A program made the translations under genes and the position numbers. From NCBI RefSeq assembly GCF_025698545.1, contig NC_068569.1, positions 2,542,001 to 2,606,000 on the forward strand: 64,000 bases of DNA, given 5' to 3'. Of this stretch, positions 22,372-49,020 are shown piece after piece; within the stretch, counting starts at the first letter, position 1; each line of letters opens with the position of its first letter. The notes beneath the pieces are model-generated. The model searched no databases and was not told the DNA's origin. It saw only the letters and a list, made by a program, of their open reading frames with translations. This stretch comes from Gossypium raimondii (lineage: Eukaryota > Streptophyta > Magnoliopsida > Malvales > Malvaceae).

Positions 22372-23760
22372 ATGGTTTTTAGTGTTAATACTCCATTGGA
22401 TGTTCAACTAAATATGGGGGACATGTTCGGGGTCTCTGTTGCGAAGAATCCAGGCACATATTTGGGGATCCCAAGCCTATGGGGGAAGACTAGAATGAAT
22501 GCTCTAAGCTATGTGAAGGAAAGGCTCATTAGCAAGCTCAAAAATCGGTTGCCAGTGCGGTTCCAATATACTACATGTCCTGTTTTAAATTTCCCAAGAA
22601 GCTTTGCAACGAGATGAATGAAGCTTTGGCTAACTTATTTTTTAATATTATTTTAATTTAATATTTATATATTTATTAAAAAATTTATTTATTAAAATTT
22701 TTTATATCGTCATCTTAATATTTTTTTAATGTATATATTAGAATAATATTATATATTTAGTATAAATTTATTTTTATAATATGTTATAAATTACATAATA
22801 TATAAAAATAACATAATATAATATTAAGTATTATAAATTTAAAAATGTGCCGAATTGGATAAGTTCAAGCCTTAAATATCCAAACTTGAGCCAGATTCAT
22901 ATTTTGAAAGGGTCTAATTTTTATTATTTAAGTCCATTTTTCAGGCATAATATTTTTATTCAAACCTACTAAATTTTGGGTTGGGCGGGTAATCCCACCC
23001 ATGAACAAGTATATTCAGGAGTGGTTGATAAGAAACTGGGGAGGAGTGTATGGGATCTTAAAGTACAAAGTAAAATAAAAATCTTCCTTTGGAAAGCTTT
23101 ATCTGGGGCCTTGGCTACGAACTTTAATATGTGGAACAAGTTTGGTTATAGAGATCCGATCTGCTGTTGATGTCACAAGGAAGCGGAAACTATTGAACAT
23201 TTACTATTGAGCTTTGGATGGGTTCGAAGGGTATGGTATGAAGCTTGCCATGGTCTTCGTGTGAACAAGGAAGATATTAGCAGCTTTGGTGGGTGGCTTG
23301 AGGAGATTTTTAGCTTGTTCAAAGGTAATATGCAAAATGCCTTGGATATGAAACTCAGAATCGCCTTTACCTGTTGGATAATTTGGAAGGAACAATGTGA
23401 AGCTATTTTCAATGGAAGTTCTGTTAGTGACAAGAGAGCCATCTATAGAGTTAAGATCGGTATGGTGGAGCTGTGTGAGCTTCAGAACAAGCAAAGCGAT
23501 TGTAGGAAGAAAACTACCTCTAATAATCGTGAAACTCTTCTCTGGTGGAAGCCGGAAACTGATTGGCTTAAAATAAACGTGGATAGCGCTTTTGAGTATC
23601 TCTTGAAGCAAGATGGGATTGAATCTTGTTGCTGATTCACCAGATGAAGTGGAGCTTCAGGCTTTATATTCCGGTTTGCAGCTTGCTAAGAGAAGAAAGT
23701 GGGATAAAATCATGATTGAAACTGACTCCAAAGTAATTTTCACTCAAGTTACAGAGAAAT
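22372..23760 (+). mobile_element. Degenerate LINE (non-LTR) retrotransposon fragment: reverse transcriptase end, zf-RVT, RNase H
   Basis: At 22372-22660 the C-terminal reverse transcriptase region is recognisable (GVSVAKNPGTYLGIPSLWGK). It shifts frame near 22560 to YYMSCFKFPKKLCNEMNEAL. About 315 bases of AT-rich DNA then interrupt it (about 22660-22975). At 22976-23250 the zinc-binding RVT domain follows (KIKIFLWKALSG, then ETIEHLLLSFGWVRRVW) with a stop between the cysteines. From about 23540 an RNase H-type domain begins (WWKPETDWLKINVDSAFE), shifts frame, and goes on as EVELQALYSGLQLAKRRKWD and IMIETDSKVIF to about 23756. Stops and frameshifts make it dead. No LINE ORF1 or endonuclease is visible. 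Confidence 0.85.
22660..22975. repeat. AT-rich insertion splitting the LINE
   Basis: Very AT-rich sequence, then a segment near 22845-22975 of the CCGAATTGGATAAGTTC / CAAACTTGAGCC / GTCCATTTTTCAGGC type. This looks like a decayed copy of a dispersed repeat inserted between the RT and zf-RVT parts of the element. Its ends are not defined. Confidence 0.4.
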
Positions 23761-28970: not shown

Positions 28971-30527
28971 ATTTATTTTATAATAGTATTTATCCAACAC
29001 TCGGTACATCATTTAAGACTTCATTTGGATACAATTGTAACTCGTTTAGAGTAAATTTTTTAAAGATTTTATTAAATATTGAAATAAGTTATAAATTGAG
29101 TTACATCATTAATATTCATTTTATGTTTTATTGCAATTTACCTCATCTCCATTTGTTGGTAAAATATTAAATAGATCATGGTTAATTATAGATACGTATA
29201 AATTTATATGTGCCATATATGTTATTTTACGTAAAATATTTACTTTTTTAACATGTAAATTGTATGACGAACATAAATAATTAAGATGAGAATCGAAAAC
29301 GGTGCGTACTATGTTTTAATTAATTAGCTTTGCGTATGAATTTGCACTCCTTTTTTTTTTTTACAGGTTGAATTATAAATTGCTGTTTTTTTTTTTTGCA
29401 AATATATATATGTAAATTGCTGTTTTTCCTGTCGGCTAGACATGAATGTATTTGTGTGCTGAAAAGTGTTTAGGTACGAAATGATAGAATAATTCAATTT
29501 TTTTATAATATTTCATTAAGAGTGAAAATGTTTAAAAAGAAAAAAGAAGAAGGAAAAGTTACTTCCCAATAATTTATTTTGGCTATCCATGCAAATTGCA
29601 ACCATATTTACAAATACTACAATAATTCAAAAGGGAGATCAAAGAATAAAGATGGTCTTTCATTTATCTCTTTTATTTTGGCTACGACTTGAAATTTAAT
29701 TGTTGGTGAGAAGACACCTGCTACTTAACGTGCATTAGTTAAGTCAACATTTATACATAAATATAATTACAATGTTTAAAATGTTTTAATGGAAATATAT
29801 TAAATAATACTTAAATCCTTAATCTCTTATTATCGTTAAAGTAGTAAAATTAATCTAAAAACCATAATTGATCTTAATACATAGACATAGTACATGGTAA
29901 AAATGATAAATAAAATATTATATCCTAATCCATCATCGTTAGATTACTCCGACAATAAATTTTAAATAATTAATTGTTGCGAAAGGCACCCAAAAAATTA
30001 GCACAAAAAATCAAGTCTCCGGAAGTTTAATTTTGTGATCAATCAATACAAAGTGGTAGGGATTTTGGATAAATTTGGTGGCATGCTTGCATATACATAA
30101 CACATTAGAACACATCTAGAAACAGAAAATAGAGTTAAAAGCACTAGGGCTTTTGGAACAAATAAAGTATACACATTGCATTTATTTACAAATTTTCATT
30201 AAGTGGTGTTTGATGGATTAAACGGCGATAAAATATGCGTGAAAGCGATTGAAAACGGAATCGAAAGAGAAGATGAATAAAATGAAGAGAAAAACAATTG
30301 AGAGAGCATAATGCCTTCCTTGTCCTTCAACCCAAAAGTAAGAAAAAGTAGCATATTTTAATAATTTCCGACGCACTATTAAAATTTATTACTTTAAAAT
30401 AAATTAATTGTTAGTGAAAATTATTTCCGACAAAAAATTAAAATTATTAAATACGTAAAGCAAATAAATTTGTTAGTAACAATCCGTTTTGTAATTAATC
30501 AGCTAAATCTCTCTCCTTTAATACAGT
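28971..30527. other. AT-rich intergenic DNA upstream of the DUF761 gene
   Basis: No gene, RNA gene or clear repeat boundary. Two poly-T runs lie near 29350-29400. The last 200 bases are the likely promoter of the gene at 30589. Confidence 0.4.
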
Positions 30528-30535
30528 TTATAAAG
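30528..30535 (+). promoter_or_regulatory. Possible TATA box of the DUF761 gene
   Basis: TTTATAAAG about 55 bases before the start codon at 30589, in front of a CT-rich leader. The spacing to the ATG would leave a short 5' UTR. Confidence 0.35.
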
Positions 30536-30588
30536 TCTTCCCCCTCAGAAACTCAAAAGAACAAAAACTCCAACACCGGCCATTTTCC

Positions 30589-32412
30589 ATGGAAGTAACC
30601 GGAGATCCTCCGTCTTTATGGTCACAGCCGACCATCTCCGCACATCGCCGACGGCCGCCTTCTCCTATTTTCAGCCTTCCTGTTCTCATCATTCTCCTAC
30701 CTATCCTCGCATTGCTTCTCTTGTTCCTCGTGGTCCCTCCTTTTCTCTCCGTCACCGCTCAGATTCTTAGACCTCTCGGTGTCAGAAAAAGCTGGGACTC
30801 TCTCAACGTCTTTCTGGTCTTGTTTGCTATTATTTGCGGCGTTTTGGCTAGAAGAAACGACGACGATGATGGCCACAACGGCAACGGCATTAGAAATGAT
30901 AGTATTAGTGGTGATAATAGTAAGCCAAGCGGCCACCATGTTTCGCAACAATGGTTTGGGCATCCGGAAAGAAAGATATATGATGACGGTGCTCCGATCA
31001 ATGTGAGACCGTCGCCGGCGACCAGTGTGAGGAGGTTGAAGAGAAGCAGTAGCTCGTACCCAGATCTGAGACAGGATTCTTTGTGGGAGAATAATGAAGA
31101 TCGATTTCGGTTTTTTGATGATTTTGAAATAAATAAATATCGATCTTCAACGGGTTATGGTGATCATCAAGTTCATGTGCTTCGTAGGAGTTGGAGGAGT
31201 GAGTTCGAAGAATCGGAAGCGAAGGTTATTCCCGTTGATACCTTTGTGCTTCGTTCTTCTACTTCATCAACTCCTTCAAAGACTCCACCGCCTTCAACGC
31301 CGCCTCCACCGCCGCCGCTGCCTCCTGCAGCCCCACGTCATAAACCAAGGCGAACTTATCAGGCAGCTGGACAGAAAGATAAGGTGATGAATCGGAACGA
31401 TCGTGTTGATCAATTCGATGAAATTAAATCTCCATCAGGAACAACACCACCGCCTCCGCCGCCACCTCCTCGACGGCCACCATCGCCGCTGGTTCAAGTG
31501 GGAAATAGATCAGAGCAGAAGTATTCGAAATTGCAACGTAGAAAAAGTAATGCAACCAAAGAAATTAAGATGGTTTTTGCTTCGTTAAGGAAGAGAAAGA
31601 AGAAACACAAGTCAACAGATCATGATCACCAGCAAGATTGTCCTTTACATTCTCCACCACAGCCACCGTCTTATTACTCTACTAGTACACGACCAACATC
31701 GCCCCCACCACCTCCGCCGCCGCCGCCGCCTCCATCCTCTGTCTTTCAGAAATACAATCTCTTCAGAAAAGGCAGCAAAAGCAAAAAAATCCATTCTGTT
31801 CCTGCACCTCCACCTCCACCACCGCCAGCAGCATTTTCGTTTTCAAAACGATCATCGAAGCAAAATATTCAGATTCCACCACCACCACCGCCCGCACCAC
31901 CACCACCAGTCACTTCTTATACAAAAATATTATCAAAGCAAAAGAGTCAGATCCCACCACCTGCACCACCAACAACGCCACCTGAATCTTCAAGGAAGGC
32001 AGACAACGGCAGACCGCCATTGCCAACAAAAGCAAATACTAGTTATTACGACGAGAACGTGAACAGCGGTGGACAGTCACCATTAATTCCGATGCCACCA
32101 CCGCCACCTCCACCACCATTTAAGATGCCAGAGTTTAAATTCGTGTTCCGTGGGGATTTTGTTAAGATACGAAGCAGTCCTAGTTCTCGCTGTAGCTCTC
32201 CGGACTTGGAAGAAATTGATGTTTCTTCAAGCAAAGGTGATACAGAAACAGCGAGCATGATGGAGGGTGATGATGGGGCTGGCATTGCAGGCGTCCCAGT
32301 GCTCTGTCCAAGTCCCGATGTTAACGCTAAAGCTGAGACCTTTATTGCCAGACTCCGGGACGGATGGAAATTAGAGAAAATAAACTCCTTGAGAGAGAAG
32401 CAAAGGACATAA
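30589..32412 (+). CDS. Proline-rich membrane protein with C-terminal DUF761-like motif
   Basis: Single exon, 607 residues, ending in TAA at 32410-32412. Residues about 28-50 (SLPVLIILLPILALLLLFLV region) and 72-87 (LNVFLVLFAIICGVLA) are hydrophobic, so the N terminus is probably membrane-anchored. The middle carries repeated polyproline blocks (PPPPPPPLPPAAP, TTPPPPPPPPRRPP, SPPPPPPPPPPPP and others) separated by basic segments such as KIQIP, KGSKSKK and RRKSNATKEIKMVFASLRKRK. The last 35 residues hold DVNAKAETFIARLRDGWKLE, the short helix of DUF761 proteins. Such genes are usually annotated as hydroxyproline-rich glycoprotein-like. There is no signal peptide or SP4 extensin pattern, so a wall protein is unlikely. 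The function is unknown; a formin-like profilin or SH3 binding role of the prolines is only a guess. Confidence 0.85.
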   Translation: MEVTGDPPSLWSQPTISAHRRRPPSPIFSLPVLIILLPILALLLLFLVVPPFLSVTAQILRPLGVRKSWDSLNVFLVLFAIICGVLARRNDDDDGHNGNGIRNDSISGDNSKPSGHHVSQQWFGHPERKIYDDGAPINVRPSPATSVRRLKRSSSSYPDLRQDSLWENNEDRFRFFDDFEINKYRSSTGYGDHQVHVLRRSWRSEFEESEAKVIPVDTFVLRSSTSSTPSKTPPPSTPPPPPPLPPAAPRHKPRRTYQAAGQKDKVMNRNDRVDQFDEIKSPSGTTPPPPPPPPRRPPSPLVQVGNRSEQKYSKLQRRKSNATKEIKMVFASLRKRKKKHKSTDHDHQQDCPLHSPPQPPSYYSTSTRPTSPPPPPPPPPPPSSVFQKYNLFRKGSKSKKIHSVPAPPPPPPPAAFSFSKRSSKQNIQIPPPPPPAPPPPVTSYTKILSKQKSQIPPPAPPTTPPESSRKADNGRPPLPTKANTSYYDENVNSGGQSPLIPMPPPPPPPPFKMPEFKFVFRGDFVKIRSSPSSRCSSPDLEEIDVSSSKGDTETASMMEGDDGAGIAGVPVLCPSPDVNAKAETFIARLRDGWKLEKINSLREKQRT

Positions 32413-36527: not shown

Positions 36528-36594
36528 CTTTCCCTGATGCTCTTACAGTAATCCTATCCAAAAACTTGACTGGTTAACGAAAGCTTTGCAAAAA

Positions 36595-38043
36595 ATGGCT
36601 TCCTTAAACCAGCAGCCGATCCATCATTTCCTGTTTATCCCTTTAATGACCCGAAGCCATCTTATTCCCTTCACCGATCTGGCCAAAGCACTCGCACACC
36701 ATGGCCAACAAGTTACCATTGTAATGACACCCCTTAATGCAGCTCGTTTCAGTGATGACTATGCCATAAATTTCAACCTCAATATCCAGTTTCTTCCTTT
36801 ATATTTTCCTGCCCAAGAAGTTGGATTACCTCAAGGGTGTGAAGCTATGGACTCACTCCCTTCTCCAGACATGGCGACAAAGTTCTTACAAGCTAGTAAT
36901 ATGCTACAACAACCATTGGAGAAATGGCTTCAAGGTTTAGACTCCCTTTCCCTTCCCAGTTGTATTATTTCCGACGTTTGTTTCCCTTGGACTTCAATTC
37001 TCGCTCTTAAATTCAATGTTTCCAGAGTTGTATTTCACACAGTTTCTTGCTTCACTCTCCTTTGCTCTCATAACATTGATCACTACAAGGTGTTTGATGA
37101 GAGGGACAAATCGGATTTTGAGCCTGTTTTGGTGCCTGATTTGCCTGATAGGATCGAAATTACTAAGGCCCAATTGCCTTTCTTTGGAAAAAACAAAGCT
37201 TTAGATGATTCTAAGAAAGTATTAAAGCAGTTTAAAGAAGCTGAAGCTTCGGCCATGGCGGTGGTAGTGAATTCTTTCCAAGAGTTGGAACCAGGGTACG
37301 TTAAAGCATACCAGAAATTCGTAAACAACCTTTGGTGTATTGGACCACTTTGTTTATACAACAAAACAACACGGAGCGAAGCCTCCATTGATGACCACAA
37401 GAGCTTAAATTGGCTTGATTCTCAGAAACCGAACTCTGTAATTTACGTTTGCTTTGGTAGCCTGTTTCATATATTTGATCAACAATTAATGGAGCTTGGG
37501 TTAGGGTTAGAAACCTCAAATTGTCCCTTCGTTTGGGTAATCAAAGAAGGAAGCTACACGGCAGAGCTAGACAAATGGTTCAAAGAGCAAAATTTTGAAG
37601 AGAGGGTTAAAGGGAGAGGGCTTATAATCCGAGGATGGGCACCCTAATTTCAAATACTGTCAAAACCGGCAATAGGAAGTTTCATAACACACTGTGGTTG
37701 GAGTTCAACACTGGAAGGAATCATTGCCGGTTTGCCATTGATAACGTGGCCGATGTCTAACGAACAGTTTTACAATGAGAAGTTAATAGTGCAAGTGGTG
37801 AAGATTGGAGTGAAGATTGGGGTTGAGAAACCCATGAAAGCGCCCGAGGTGTTGGTGAAAAAGGAGGAGGTACTGAAGGCTATAAAACAGGTGATTGATG
37901 GAGGAGAGGAAGGGGAAGAGAGGAAGAAAAGAGCTAAAAAGCTTGGAGAGATGGCAAAAATGGCAGTTGAAAATGGAGGTTCTTCTTGCTCCAACTTGAC
38001 GTCGTTGATCCACCTCGTAAGTTACTTCAATCAACACAGATAA
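36595..38043 (+). pseudogene. UGT73-type UDP-glycosyltransferase broken by a nonsense codon
   Basis: An intronless frame of 482 sense positions from the ATG at 36595 to the TAA at 38041-38043, interrupted only by TAA at 37645-37647 (codon 351). The upstream part shows the acceptor half: FLFIPLMTRSHLIPF with the usual catalytic His at 22, then GLPQGCEAMDSLPSPD, VVNSFQELEPGYVKAY, WLDSQKPNSVIYVCFGS and KGRGLIIRGWAP. The stop replaces the fourth residue (normally Gln) of the 44-residue donor-binding PSPG box. The rest is intact downstream: AIGSFITHCGWSSTLEG, LPLITWPMSNEQFYNEKLIV and NGGSSCSNLTSLI. Family enzymes transfer UDP-sugars to small molecules (UGT73C: flavonoids, brassinosteroids, triterpenes). 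The truncated product would lack the donor site. All other sequence is well kept, so the mutation is recent, or is an assembly or allelic variant. Confidence 0.88.
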
Positions 38044-38405: not shown

Positions 38406-38414
38406 AATTTTATC
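38406..38414. repeat. Left 9-bp target-site duplication of the hairpin element
   Basis: AATTTTATC directly before the GGGTTTTTTACAC end; identical to 39060-39068. Confidence 0.88.
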
Positions 38415-39059
38415 GGGTTTTTTACACAAATAGTATAGAAAAAAAATACTGAAATAGGATGTCAGAAAAAAATTTACCAAAATAGGTTACTTTTTCATTG
38501 GAGCCTATTAGGTAGGTGCCAATGAATAAAATAATAATAATTTTTTTTGAATAAAATATTTTTTTATATTTTTAAAAAAAAATACGAGTCAAAATACGGT
38601 CAACGGGTTGGGTCGGGTGGCGCCTATCAGGTAGGCGCCAATGAATATTGTAATTTTGTATTAATATTGTAATTATTTTATAATTAAATTTGTATTTATA
38701 GTTTTGGATTAGTATTTTGTATGAATATTGTAATTTTTTATATGAATATTGTAATTTTGTATGAATATTCATTGGCGCCTCTCTATGAGGCACCTTCATT
38801 GGCGCCTCTCTGTGAGGCATCTTCATTGGCGCCTACCTGATAGGCGCCACCCGACCCAACCCAACCCATTGACCGTATTTTGACTCGTATTTTTTAAAAA
38901 AATATATAAAAGAATATTTTATTCAAAAAAAATTATTATTCTTTTATTCATTGGCGCCTACCTAATAGGCTCCAATGAAAAAGTAACCTATTTTGATAAA
39001 TTTTTTTTCTGACATCCTATTTCAGTTTTTTTTTTCTATATCATTTGTGTAAAAAACCC
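38415..39059. mobile_element. Long-TIR hairpin element, Mutator-type (MULE) MITE, 645 bp
   Basis: The left arm 38415-38645 and right arm 38822-39059 are near-perfect inverted copies. Both outer ends read GGGTTTTTTACACAAAT inward, with AAATAGGATGTCAGAAAAAA, TTGGAGCCTATTAGGTAGG, TACGAGTCAAAATACGGTCAA and GGCGCCTATCAGGTAGGCGCC shared. It is flanked by identical 9-bp AATTTTATC, the duplication size of Mutator transposases. The spacer (38646-38821) holds repeated GAATATTGTAATTTTGTAT and two 27-bp tandem units (38770-38796, 38797-38823) of CATTGGCGCCTCTCT. No coding capacity. The transcript would fold into a hairpin of over 230 base pairs. Confidence 0.88.
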
Positions 39060-39068
39060 AATTTTATC
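39060..39068. repeat. Right 9-bp target-site duplication of the hairpin element
   Basis: AATTTTATC directly after the GTAAAAAACCC end. Confidence 0.88.
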
Positions 39069-41455: not shown

Positions 41456-46885
<5,430 letters not shown>

Positions 46886-47787
46886 GGGTAAACAACGCAT
46901 ATAGTCACGCTACTATAATTGTTTTTCATATTGGACATTCAAAATAAAAAAATTTACAACTTAAGTACCCACGTTACATATTTCAATCATTTTGATCACA
47001 CCGGTTAAAATCACAAACTGCAAGATGACATGACAGTTAAAAAAATTGACACAGTAACACATTTAGCCCTCAAATTTTACATATTATATCAAATTAGTCA
47101 TAATTTTAAAAAATTAACCTTCAAATTTTACAAATAATTTCAATATGATCCTAATTCTAAAAACTATTAATATTAAGATTAGTATTAAATAAATAAAAAA
47201 ATGCCCCCTCAATGAAGATGATGACACATTTCTTTAATATCTTTAAAAGTAGGCAGAGACAATTCCAACGACTCAAACTCAATATTCATTATCTTACTTT
47301 CTCCGATCCTCATTTTCTCCTATCTCTTCCTTATTTCCTTCTTCTTGTTCTTTTTCTTCATTGTTTCTCTCTTTTTCTTGTTTGTCATCATCTTCATTGA
47401 TCGTGGTAGATTTTTATTTTATTTAATATTAATATTAATAGTAATATTAATATAAATTTTAAATTTATTATTATATATTTTTAAAATGTTTATGTATTTT
47501 TATATATTTTTGAATTTTTAGAATTAATATCAAATTGTGACCATTTGTATGTTTAGAGAGTTAACTTTTTAAATTATGACTAAATTGATATAATATGTAA
47601 AAATTGAGTGCTAAATTTATCATTCTACCGACTTTTTAATTGTCATGCCATCTTGCCGCTTATAATTTTAACTGGAGTGACCAAAATGATCGAACTATAA
47701 AATATAGGTGGTTAAATTATAAATATTTTATTTTAAGTGCCTAAAATAAAATTTCTATAATTAAATGACTATTTGTATAATTTACCT
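46886..47787. mobile_element. Long inverted-repeat element, about 900 bp
   Basis: The left arm (about 46886-47170) and right arm (about 47520-47787) are inverted copies. Left GGTAAACAACGCATATAGTCA matches inverted right GGTAAATTATACAAATAGTCA. CAATCATTTTGATCACACCGG matches CGATCATTTTGGTCACTCCAG, and CAAGATGACATGACAGTTAAA matches CAAGATGGCATGACAATTAAA. The CAAATTTTACATATTATATC block is also shared. The flanks are not clearly duplicated. The loop contains a pyrimidine-rich 62-codon open frame (47212-47400) without domain signal. No transposase. Confidence 0.75.
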
Positions 47788-47970: not shown

Positions 47971-49020
47971 TTAAGAGTGTAAAAAACTTTCAAGCTTAAA
48001 AAAAAATTAATTAAGTCATTATTTTTCTATTCAATTGGATATTTGAACTATTAAAATACATAAAAGACCCTTAATTTTAAAAATAATAATTAAGTCCTTT
48101 TTTACTAAATTGTACCTTAAACCATTAAAATACATCAAAAGATCATTTGACTATTAAAGTTAATCGCTTCAAAATTTTTTCAGTTAAAGTCACCCGTGTC
48201 ACAACCACAATGTGACATGTGGTAAAAATTATAAAAATATTTAAATTTTATTAAAATTAGAAAAATTATAAAAATCGTAAAAGAAATATAAAAAATAGTG
48301 AAATTTTATAAAAATCATAAAAATATATAAAATGCATCAAAAAGACTTTTTAACCATTGATCGTTAAAGTTAATGACTCTCGTTTTTTTAAGGTAAAACC
48401 ATAACGTGTTGCAACAAAGCGTGACATGTGACAAAAATGATAAAAATAAAAATAAATAAAAATTATAGAAATTTTATAAAATGATTCTTTTGGTACAAAA
48501 ATTTATATATATTTTTTACAAATTTTATATTTCTTTACATTATTATAATTCTCTTACGACTTTATAAAATATTACAATTTATAATTCTCTTACGACTTTA
48601 TAAAATATTACAATTTTACATTTTACATTTTATGATTCTTATAAAATTTTGTAATTTTTTATATTATTTCTATTTTTTAAAATAATTTAATATTTTATTA
48701 AAATTTAATAATTTTTATAAATTTTATTAGTTTTTTATTTTTTATAAATTTTTTTGCCACATGTCACGCCGTGATTGTGACACGGGATGGCTTTAACTGA
48801 AAAAATTAGTGGCAGTTTATTTTAATGGTCAATCATTAAAGTTAAACGTTAAAGAGCCTTTTTGATGCATTTTGAGAGTTTAAGTATCCAATTAAGTGTA
48901 AAAAAAAAAATAGAAGCTTAATTGCTTTTTTTGAAAAATGTTGAAGGCCTTATTTATATTAAATAAAAAATACAGAAATTTAAAATTTTTTTTTTAAGTT
49001 TGAGGCTTTTTACCCTTAAG
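47971..49020. mobile_element. Long inverted-repeat element, about 1.05 kb, with internal reiterated segments
   Basis: The outer ends TTAAGAGTGTAAAAAACTTTC and inverted TTAAGGGTAAAAAGCCTCAAA pair. Inward, CAATTGGATATTTGAACT pairs with CAATTAGGATAC-like sequence at about 48880. TTTTTTCAGTTAAAGTCACCC plus GTGTCACAACCACAATGTGAC (48175-48215) pairs with the inverse of GTCACGCCGTGATTGTGACAC (48765-48785). A third, direct copy of the CATCAAAAAGACTTTTTAACC ... CGTGACATGTGAC segment lies at 48330-48440. It starts about 180 bases after the previous inverted-repeat element. No coding capacity. Confidence 0.7.

Follow-up and report, generated by a model that had tools for sequence, protein, structure and literature searches.

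We identified a 645-bp inverted repeat (38415–39059; GC 0.29) in the window, the whole 64-kb stretch of DNA analysed here, that is very probably a non-autonomous DNA transposon of the Mutator superfamily (a MULE), of the foldback or MITE type with long terminal inverted repeats (TIRs). The left end of the element reads GGGTTTTTTACACAAAT and the right end its reverse complement, GTGTAAAAAACCC. Directly outside these ends lie two copies of AATTTTATC, at 38406–38414 and 39060–39068, and the first-pass annotation of this DNA had placed both the flanks and the repeat that they enclose correctly. The flanks match perfectly over 9 bp and differ at the tenth position, so that the match cannot be extended. 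When every offset up to 40 bp from each end was compared (81 × 81), with matches required to contain more than two kinds of letter, the AATTTTATC pair was the sole match of 9 to 11 bp and fell exactly at both TIR ends. At 8 bp, one additional and unrelated match (AGTTTTTT) was seen apart from the one nested within the duplication. Identical 9-mers are rare in the window, at 80 of 3,617,361 sampled pairs (about 2e-5), and equal 9-mers at the exact spacing of the element occurred at 2 of 63,337 positions, one of them being the AATTTTATC duplication itself. We do not think that chance is the source of an inverted repeat with exact 9-bp flanks, and the target site duplication proposed in the first-pass annotation stands.

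Cut-and-paste transposition leaves a footprint of this kind, in which a 9-bp duplication directly borders both ends of a long inverted repeat. The ends of the element would be bound by a MuDR-like transposase, encoded at another locus of the plant genome, that excises it; the element would then be pasted into an AT-rich site through a 9-bp staggered cut, and fill-in of that cut would produce the duplication. Template switching can also generate long palindromes, and the 64-kb window holds no second copy of the element; elsewhere, the best 40 matches were short (20–77 nt, 72–95% identity). Both points could speak for an inverted duplication that arose by an error of replication or repair without transposition, but the 9-bp flanks would then be a coincidence. 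The low rate at which two given 9-mers are identical in the window, and the uniqueness and exact position of the AATTTTATC match, make this origin highly improbable.

The two arms account for 475 of the 645 nt. The left arm (38415–38648, plus strand, 234 nt) begins with GGGTTTTTTACACAAAT, and the right arm (38819–39059, minus strand, 241 nt) ends with GTGTAAAAAACCC. In the alignment of one arm to the other, 222 of 234 positions were identical, the differences being six transitions and six transversions, with three gaps that sum to 7 nt. The hairpin had been described as near-perfect; the long inverted repeat is real, but the identity of its arms is only about 95%. We scanned the window for ungapped inverted repeats and retained segments that scored at least 20. 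The three segments of the element ranked at the top (93, 49 and 41), and the next best, elsewhere in the window, scored 39. Nine of ten 64-kb order-2 Markov sequences had no segment at this threshold, and the remaining one reached 20.

The arms also pair with each other in the predicted RNA fold of the strand, which is very stable (−375.5 kcal/mol, compared with a shuffle mean of −124.8; none of 20 shuffles was as good). Such stability might be expected of a microRNA gene or a selected regulatory hairpin, and Rfam returned three weak matches to miRNA families (E 0.22–0.4). The bit scores of these matches (25.3, 21.1 and 19.3) lie far below the respective gathering scores (139.7, 139 and 70), however, and a fourth match of equal rank was to the Hairy RNA localisation element, so the Rfam matches look like chance. 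The length of the element and its duplication are, by contrast, typical of a transposon. We rejected a microRNA gene on the Rfam scores and give hardly any credence to an origin of this kind. A protein-coding element was ruled out as well, since the longest stop-free stretch in its six frames is 86 codons.

Words and segments from the element gave little in other collections. A 17-mer from the TIR matched four contigs in a viral contig collection; the best ten comparison rows showed 17–21 nt shared with the TIR ends, together with two more chance-level matches (13 and 23 nt, E 0.52). Judging by these alignments, we take the viral matches to the TIR ends to be chance. One module word had no match in the viral contig collection and another had none in a collection of prokaryote genome contigs. 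In literature searches with words derived from the element, the matches listed were to unrelated work, as judged by title and the start of the abstract.

The transposon was compared with published descriptions of MULEs. Mutator elements are described as having target site duplications of 7–12 bp (PMC9168764), and the perfect 9-bp AATTTTATC falls within this range. For a tomato MULE library, inverted repeats had to be at least 100 bp long and at least 80% similar, with duplications of 9–11 bp (PMC3310237); the arms reported here are 234 and 241 nt long and identical at 222 of 234 aligned positions. In a table of MULE groups, most of the flowering-plant groups that state a duplication length, among the rows seen, give 9 bp and one gives 8 (PMC6446971). 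The element is also short, non-coding and bounded by TIRs and a duplication, as MITEs are (645 bp, at most 86 codons free of stops), and it has the build of a foldback element, with most of its length in the arms, two palindromic modules in each arm and 27-bp units on the right. Published MULEs of foldback shape whose long TIRs are modular include MuTAnT and FARE1 (PMC4486113) and Tm1 (PMC3169594).

The Mutator-type transposition proposed in the first-pass annotation is thus the best reading and a probable one, with a 9-bp AT-rich duplication, long TIRs and GGG...CCC ends; we infer the superfamily, however, because neither a transposase nor a second copy was seen, and Merlin fits too. A GG terminus, a duplication of 8 or 9 bp and TIRs between 24 and 462 bp are structural features of Merlin that the element has, and they do not separate Merlin from MULEs. 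In flowering plants, Merlin is far less common than MULEs, and for that reason we rate a non-autonomous Merlin-superfamily element, mobilised by an IS1595-type transposase, as very unlikely. In its favour, Merlin TIRs are described as 24–462 bp long and starting with GG, with 8- or 9-bp duplications, and the element fits all three (PMC8101967). MULEs, on the other hand, are abundant in flowering plants, with 28,041 counted in tomato and 1,576 in Arabidopsis (PMC3310237), and such modular foldback arms have been described in MULEs (PMC3169594, PMC4486113).

Among known MULEs, several resemble the element in part. MuTAnT, a Mutator family of Medicago truncatula, is likewise small and non-autonomous, with modular long TIRs that fold back into a hairpin; the likeness is one of architecture (PMC4486113). 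MuTAnT inserts into TA microsatellites, 90% of its copies are 200–300 bp long and its TIRs average 47 bp (PMC4486113), whereas the element described here is 645 bp long, has 234-nt arms and lies in an AT-rich site other than a TA microsatellite. FARE1, an Arabidopsis foldback family now placed among the MULEs, shares long palindromic repeats at both ends, a comparison made by description (PMC4486113). Tm1 of root-knot nematodes has duplications that are mostly 9 bp long, MITE-like members and composite TIRs containing tandem units, but differs in that tandem units of 13–15 bp make up the largest part of its TIRs, its outer motifs are asymmetric and its host is an animal (PMC3169594). The barley MULE Hvu_Abermu shares the GGG...CCC termini and 9-bp duplications in TA-rich sites; its TIRs are 138–145 bp long, and 267 of 278 bounded elements have 9-bp duplications (PMC9168764). 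It is 8,176 bp long and probably autonomous, in contrast to the 645 bp without a long frame that we describe (PMC9168764). Judged from its structure, the element is most probably an ordinary one for the greater part, and its novelty would be limited to being another family member; its single unusual trait is a cluster of possible binding sites for a cell-cycle protein.

The first-pass annotation had called the insertion young on the grounds that its arms are alike. No single template gives rise to both arms when a TIR element inserts. Arm identity similar to that found here is reported in two MULE families: the mean identity between the arms of an element is 93.15% in Tm1, a nematode Mutator/Foldback family (PMC3169594), and the outer TIRs of tomato PM-ZIBP elements are 87–95% identical in the nine complete rows seen (PMC3310237). 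Because the arms lack a common template at insertion and comparable identity is seen elsewhere, their likeness does not show youth, and we rejected arm identity as a clock. CpG retention was considered as another sign of youth. The CpG ratio is 1.03 in the element and 0.58 in the window, but an equal or higher ratio was found in 54 of 317 segments of the same size, and in 49 of 310 when those that overlap the element were excluded, and this sign was rejected as well. The intact duplication, 18 bases in total, is weak evidence for a fairly recent insertion. Correct placement of the element aids annotation of the region and cautions against taking arm identity as age.

Each arm carries two partly self-complementary modules, one inner and one outer. 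The outer module of the left arm (38494–38526; repeat family D1) has GGAGCC and GGTGCC instead of GGCGCC and is self-complementary at 24 of 33 positions, and the inner module (38613–38645) has two GGCGCC, at 38619 and 38634, with TTGGCGCC at 38634 on the minus strand. On the right, the inner module (38822–38854) again has two GGCGCC (38828 and 38843), and the outer module (38947–38979), self-complementary at 26 of 33 positions, has one GGCGCC (38953) and one GGCTCC, with TTGGCGCC at 38951. The window contains eight GGCGCC, seven of them inside the element, where about 1.2 would be expected per 64 kb from base composition. This agrees with the GGCGCC palindromes that had been pointed out in the element.

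Between the arms lies a loop of 170 nt (38649–38818) that consists of AT-rich, degenerate repeats of about 19 nt, followed by most of two extra 27-bp units. The degenerate repeats were delimited by TRF at 38644–38769, and GC is 0.13 in 38649–38767. The two extra units (38768–38794 and 38795–38821, plus strand), also found by TRF, are identical to each other at 25 of 27 positions. The right arm's own inner module doubles as a third unit and is identical to each of the extra ones at 21 of 27 positions. Tandem 27-bp units are therefore real (array 38768–38834, TRF score 120), but they are confined to the inner edge of the right arm and not spread over the inner ends as had been described. Slippage of the palindromic module may have generated them there. 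In a minus-strand reading of the element (38415–39059), the 27-bp units give the repetitive peptide GANEDASQRGANEGAS; 27 is a multiple of 3, so that these units may yield spurious repetitive gene models.

The GGCGCC modules contain five copies of TTGGCGCC, an E2F-like motif. TTSSCGSS is a consensus for E2F sites, and it has seven matches in the 64 kb, of which five lie in the 645 bp of the element, all reading TTGGCGCC, and two elsewhere. Among 2,000 order-1 Markov sequences generated with the composition of the element, none had as many as five matches. The five sites overlap CCAAT or ATTGG words, which we take to be NF-Y boxes. Both of the extra 27-bp units contain TTGGCGCCTC exactly. In Arabidopsis, a cell-cycle-related E2F motif is described as reading TTTGGCGCC, and the words identified there include TTGGCGCCTC (PMC1779545). 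Cell-cycle enhancer motifs are said to be present in MuDR TIRs (PMC3310237, citing other work), and Brassicaceae MITEs, including MULE MITEs, are reviewed as having amplified E2F sites (PMC12595863 and PMC13317346, both on the basis of a 2014 paper). Those MITEs resemble the element as transposons that bear E2F-like sites, but they are present in many copies and E2Fa binding is reported for them, whereas here there is one copy and a resemblance of sequence alone (PMC12595863, PMC13317346).

The five TTGGCGCC words suggest, short of proof, cell-cycle-linked sites in the TIR. On this basis, and in a manner compatible with a MULE, the GGCGCC modules might be putative E2F-type or transposase-binding sites and the element a movable cell-cycle regulatory element, an additional reading that we consider unlikely. 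The concentration of TTSSCGSS matches in the element and the precedents from Arabidopsis, Brassicaceae and MuDR speak for it. Against it, all five sites derive from copies of a single module and amount to about one observation, so that their number is not independent evidence. All five read ATTGGCGCC, one base away from TTTGGCGCC, and the general E2F consensus is given as TTTYYCGYY (PMC1779545). The scarcity of GGCGCC in the outer modules, with none on the left and one on the right, speaks against strong selection. The module might just as well be a repeat to which the transposase binds. If the sites were working E2F-type sites, duplication of the module on one arm might strengthen S-phase binding or transcription, and the element could be expressed or mobilised in dividing cells, where it would spread E2F sites near genes and make its own silencing double-stranded RNA; we regard this chain of events as quite improbable. 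Papers that matched literature searches with E2F words did not contain TTSSCGSS. In searches that combined E2F with MITE or MULE TIRs, the module was absent from the titles and abstract starts of the matches listed, which is weak evidence of absence. Should the E2F-like sites be real, they would be a further case beside the Brassicaceae MITEs, consistent with the cell-cycle motifs reported for MuDR ends.

The first-pass annotation also raised the production of small RNAs from the hairpin, which is plausible given its predicted fold. Transcription across the element, for example by read-through from an upstream glycosyltransferase (UGT) frame, would yield an RNA duplex of about 230 bp, and Dicer-like enzymes could cut this duplex into small RNAs that silence the element and perhaps its surroundings too. 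Of 885 inverted repeats in Arabidopsis Col-0, 634 are reported to lie within 3 kb of a gene; transposable elements, above all MuDR-family MITEs, are the probable source of about 68% of these 634, and around 486 of the 634 produce 24-nt siRNAs (PMC12595863). The element described here may, by analogy, produce them too. Elements of this type supply plants with inverted repeats near genes, 24-nt siRNAs and local methylation (PMC12595863).

The UGT frame (36538–38043, plus strand) is UGT73-like and is interrupted by an in-frame TAA at 37645–37647. Each of the two pieces on either side of the TAA alone matched solved UGT73-type enzymes by phmmer, and in Pfam the second piece, but not the first, reached 0.001. 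The frame is thus a pseudogene of recent origin or a null allele, or else contains a sequencing error. The first-pass annotation had placed the hairpin next to a broken UGT gene, and the frame does carry a stop, but the first duplication is 758 bp downstream of this stop and 362 bp downstream of the end of the frame; the insertion therefore did not break the UGT. The hairpin thus sits in the 3′ flank of the UGT frame, and the element most likely inserted behind a plant sugar-transferase gene.

Other features of the window were recorded in passing. Its gene content resembles that of a flowering plant. The inverted-repeat scan showed further repeats near 47–49 and 51 kb. One of these is a second, degraded inverted repeat at 47061–47616 (core arms of 51 nt, score 39), around which a weaker repeat was seen by eye at about 46940–47710. 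A third is a degraded nest of inverted repeats at 48193–48873, made up of 48193–48228 with 48751–48786 and of 48329–48354 with 48848–48873. No duplication of 8–11 bp was found at 47061–47616 or 48193–48873, the ends of which are placed loosely. A frame at 23171–23635 (plus strand) had no Pfam match at 0.001; it is reminiscent of the zf-RVT and RNase H end of a plant LINE. Downstream of the element, 41456–43204 (minus strand) matched Pfam PALP, a pyridoxal-phosphate enzyme family, and we take this to be a threonine synthase. At 30499–32412 (plus strand), the end of a long proline-rich frame matched the cotton fibre expressed protein family (Pfam DUF761) with E 3.4e-05.
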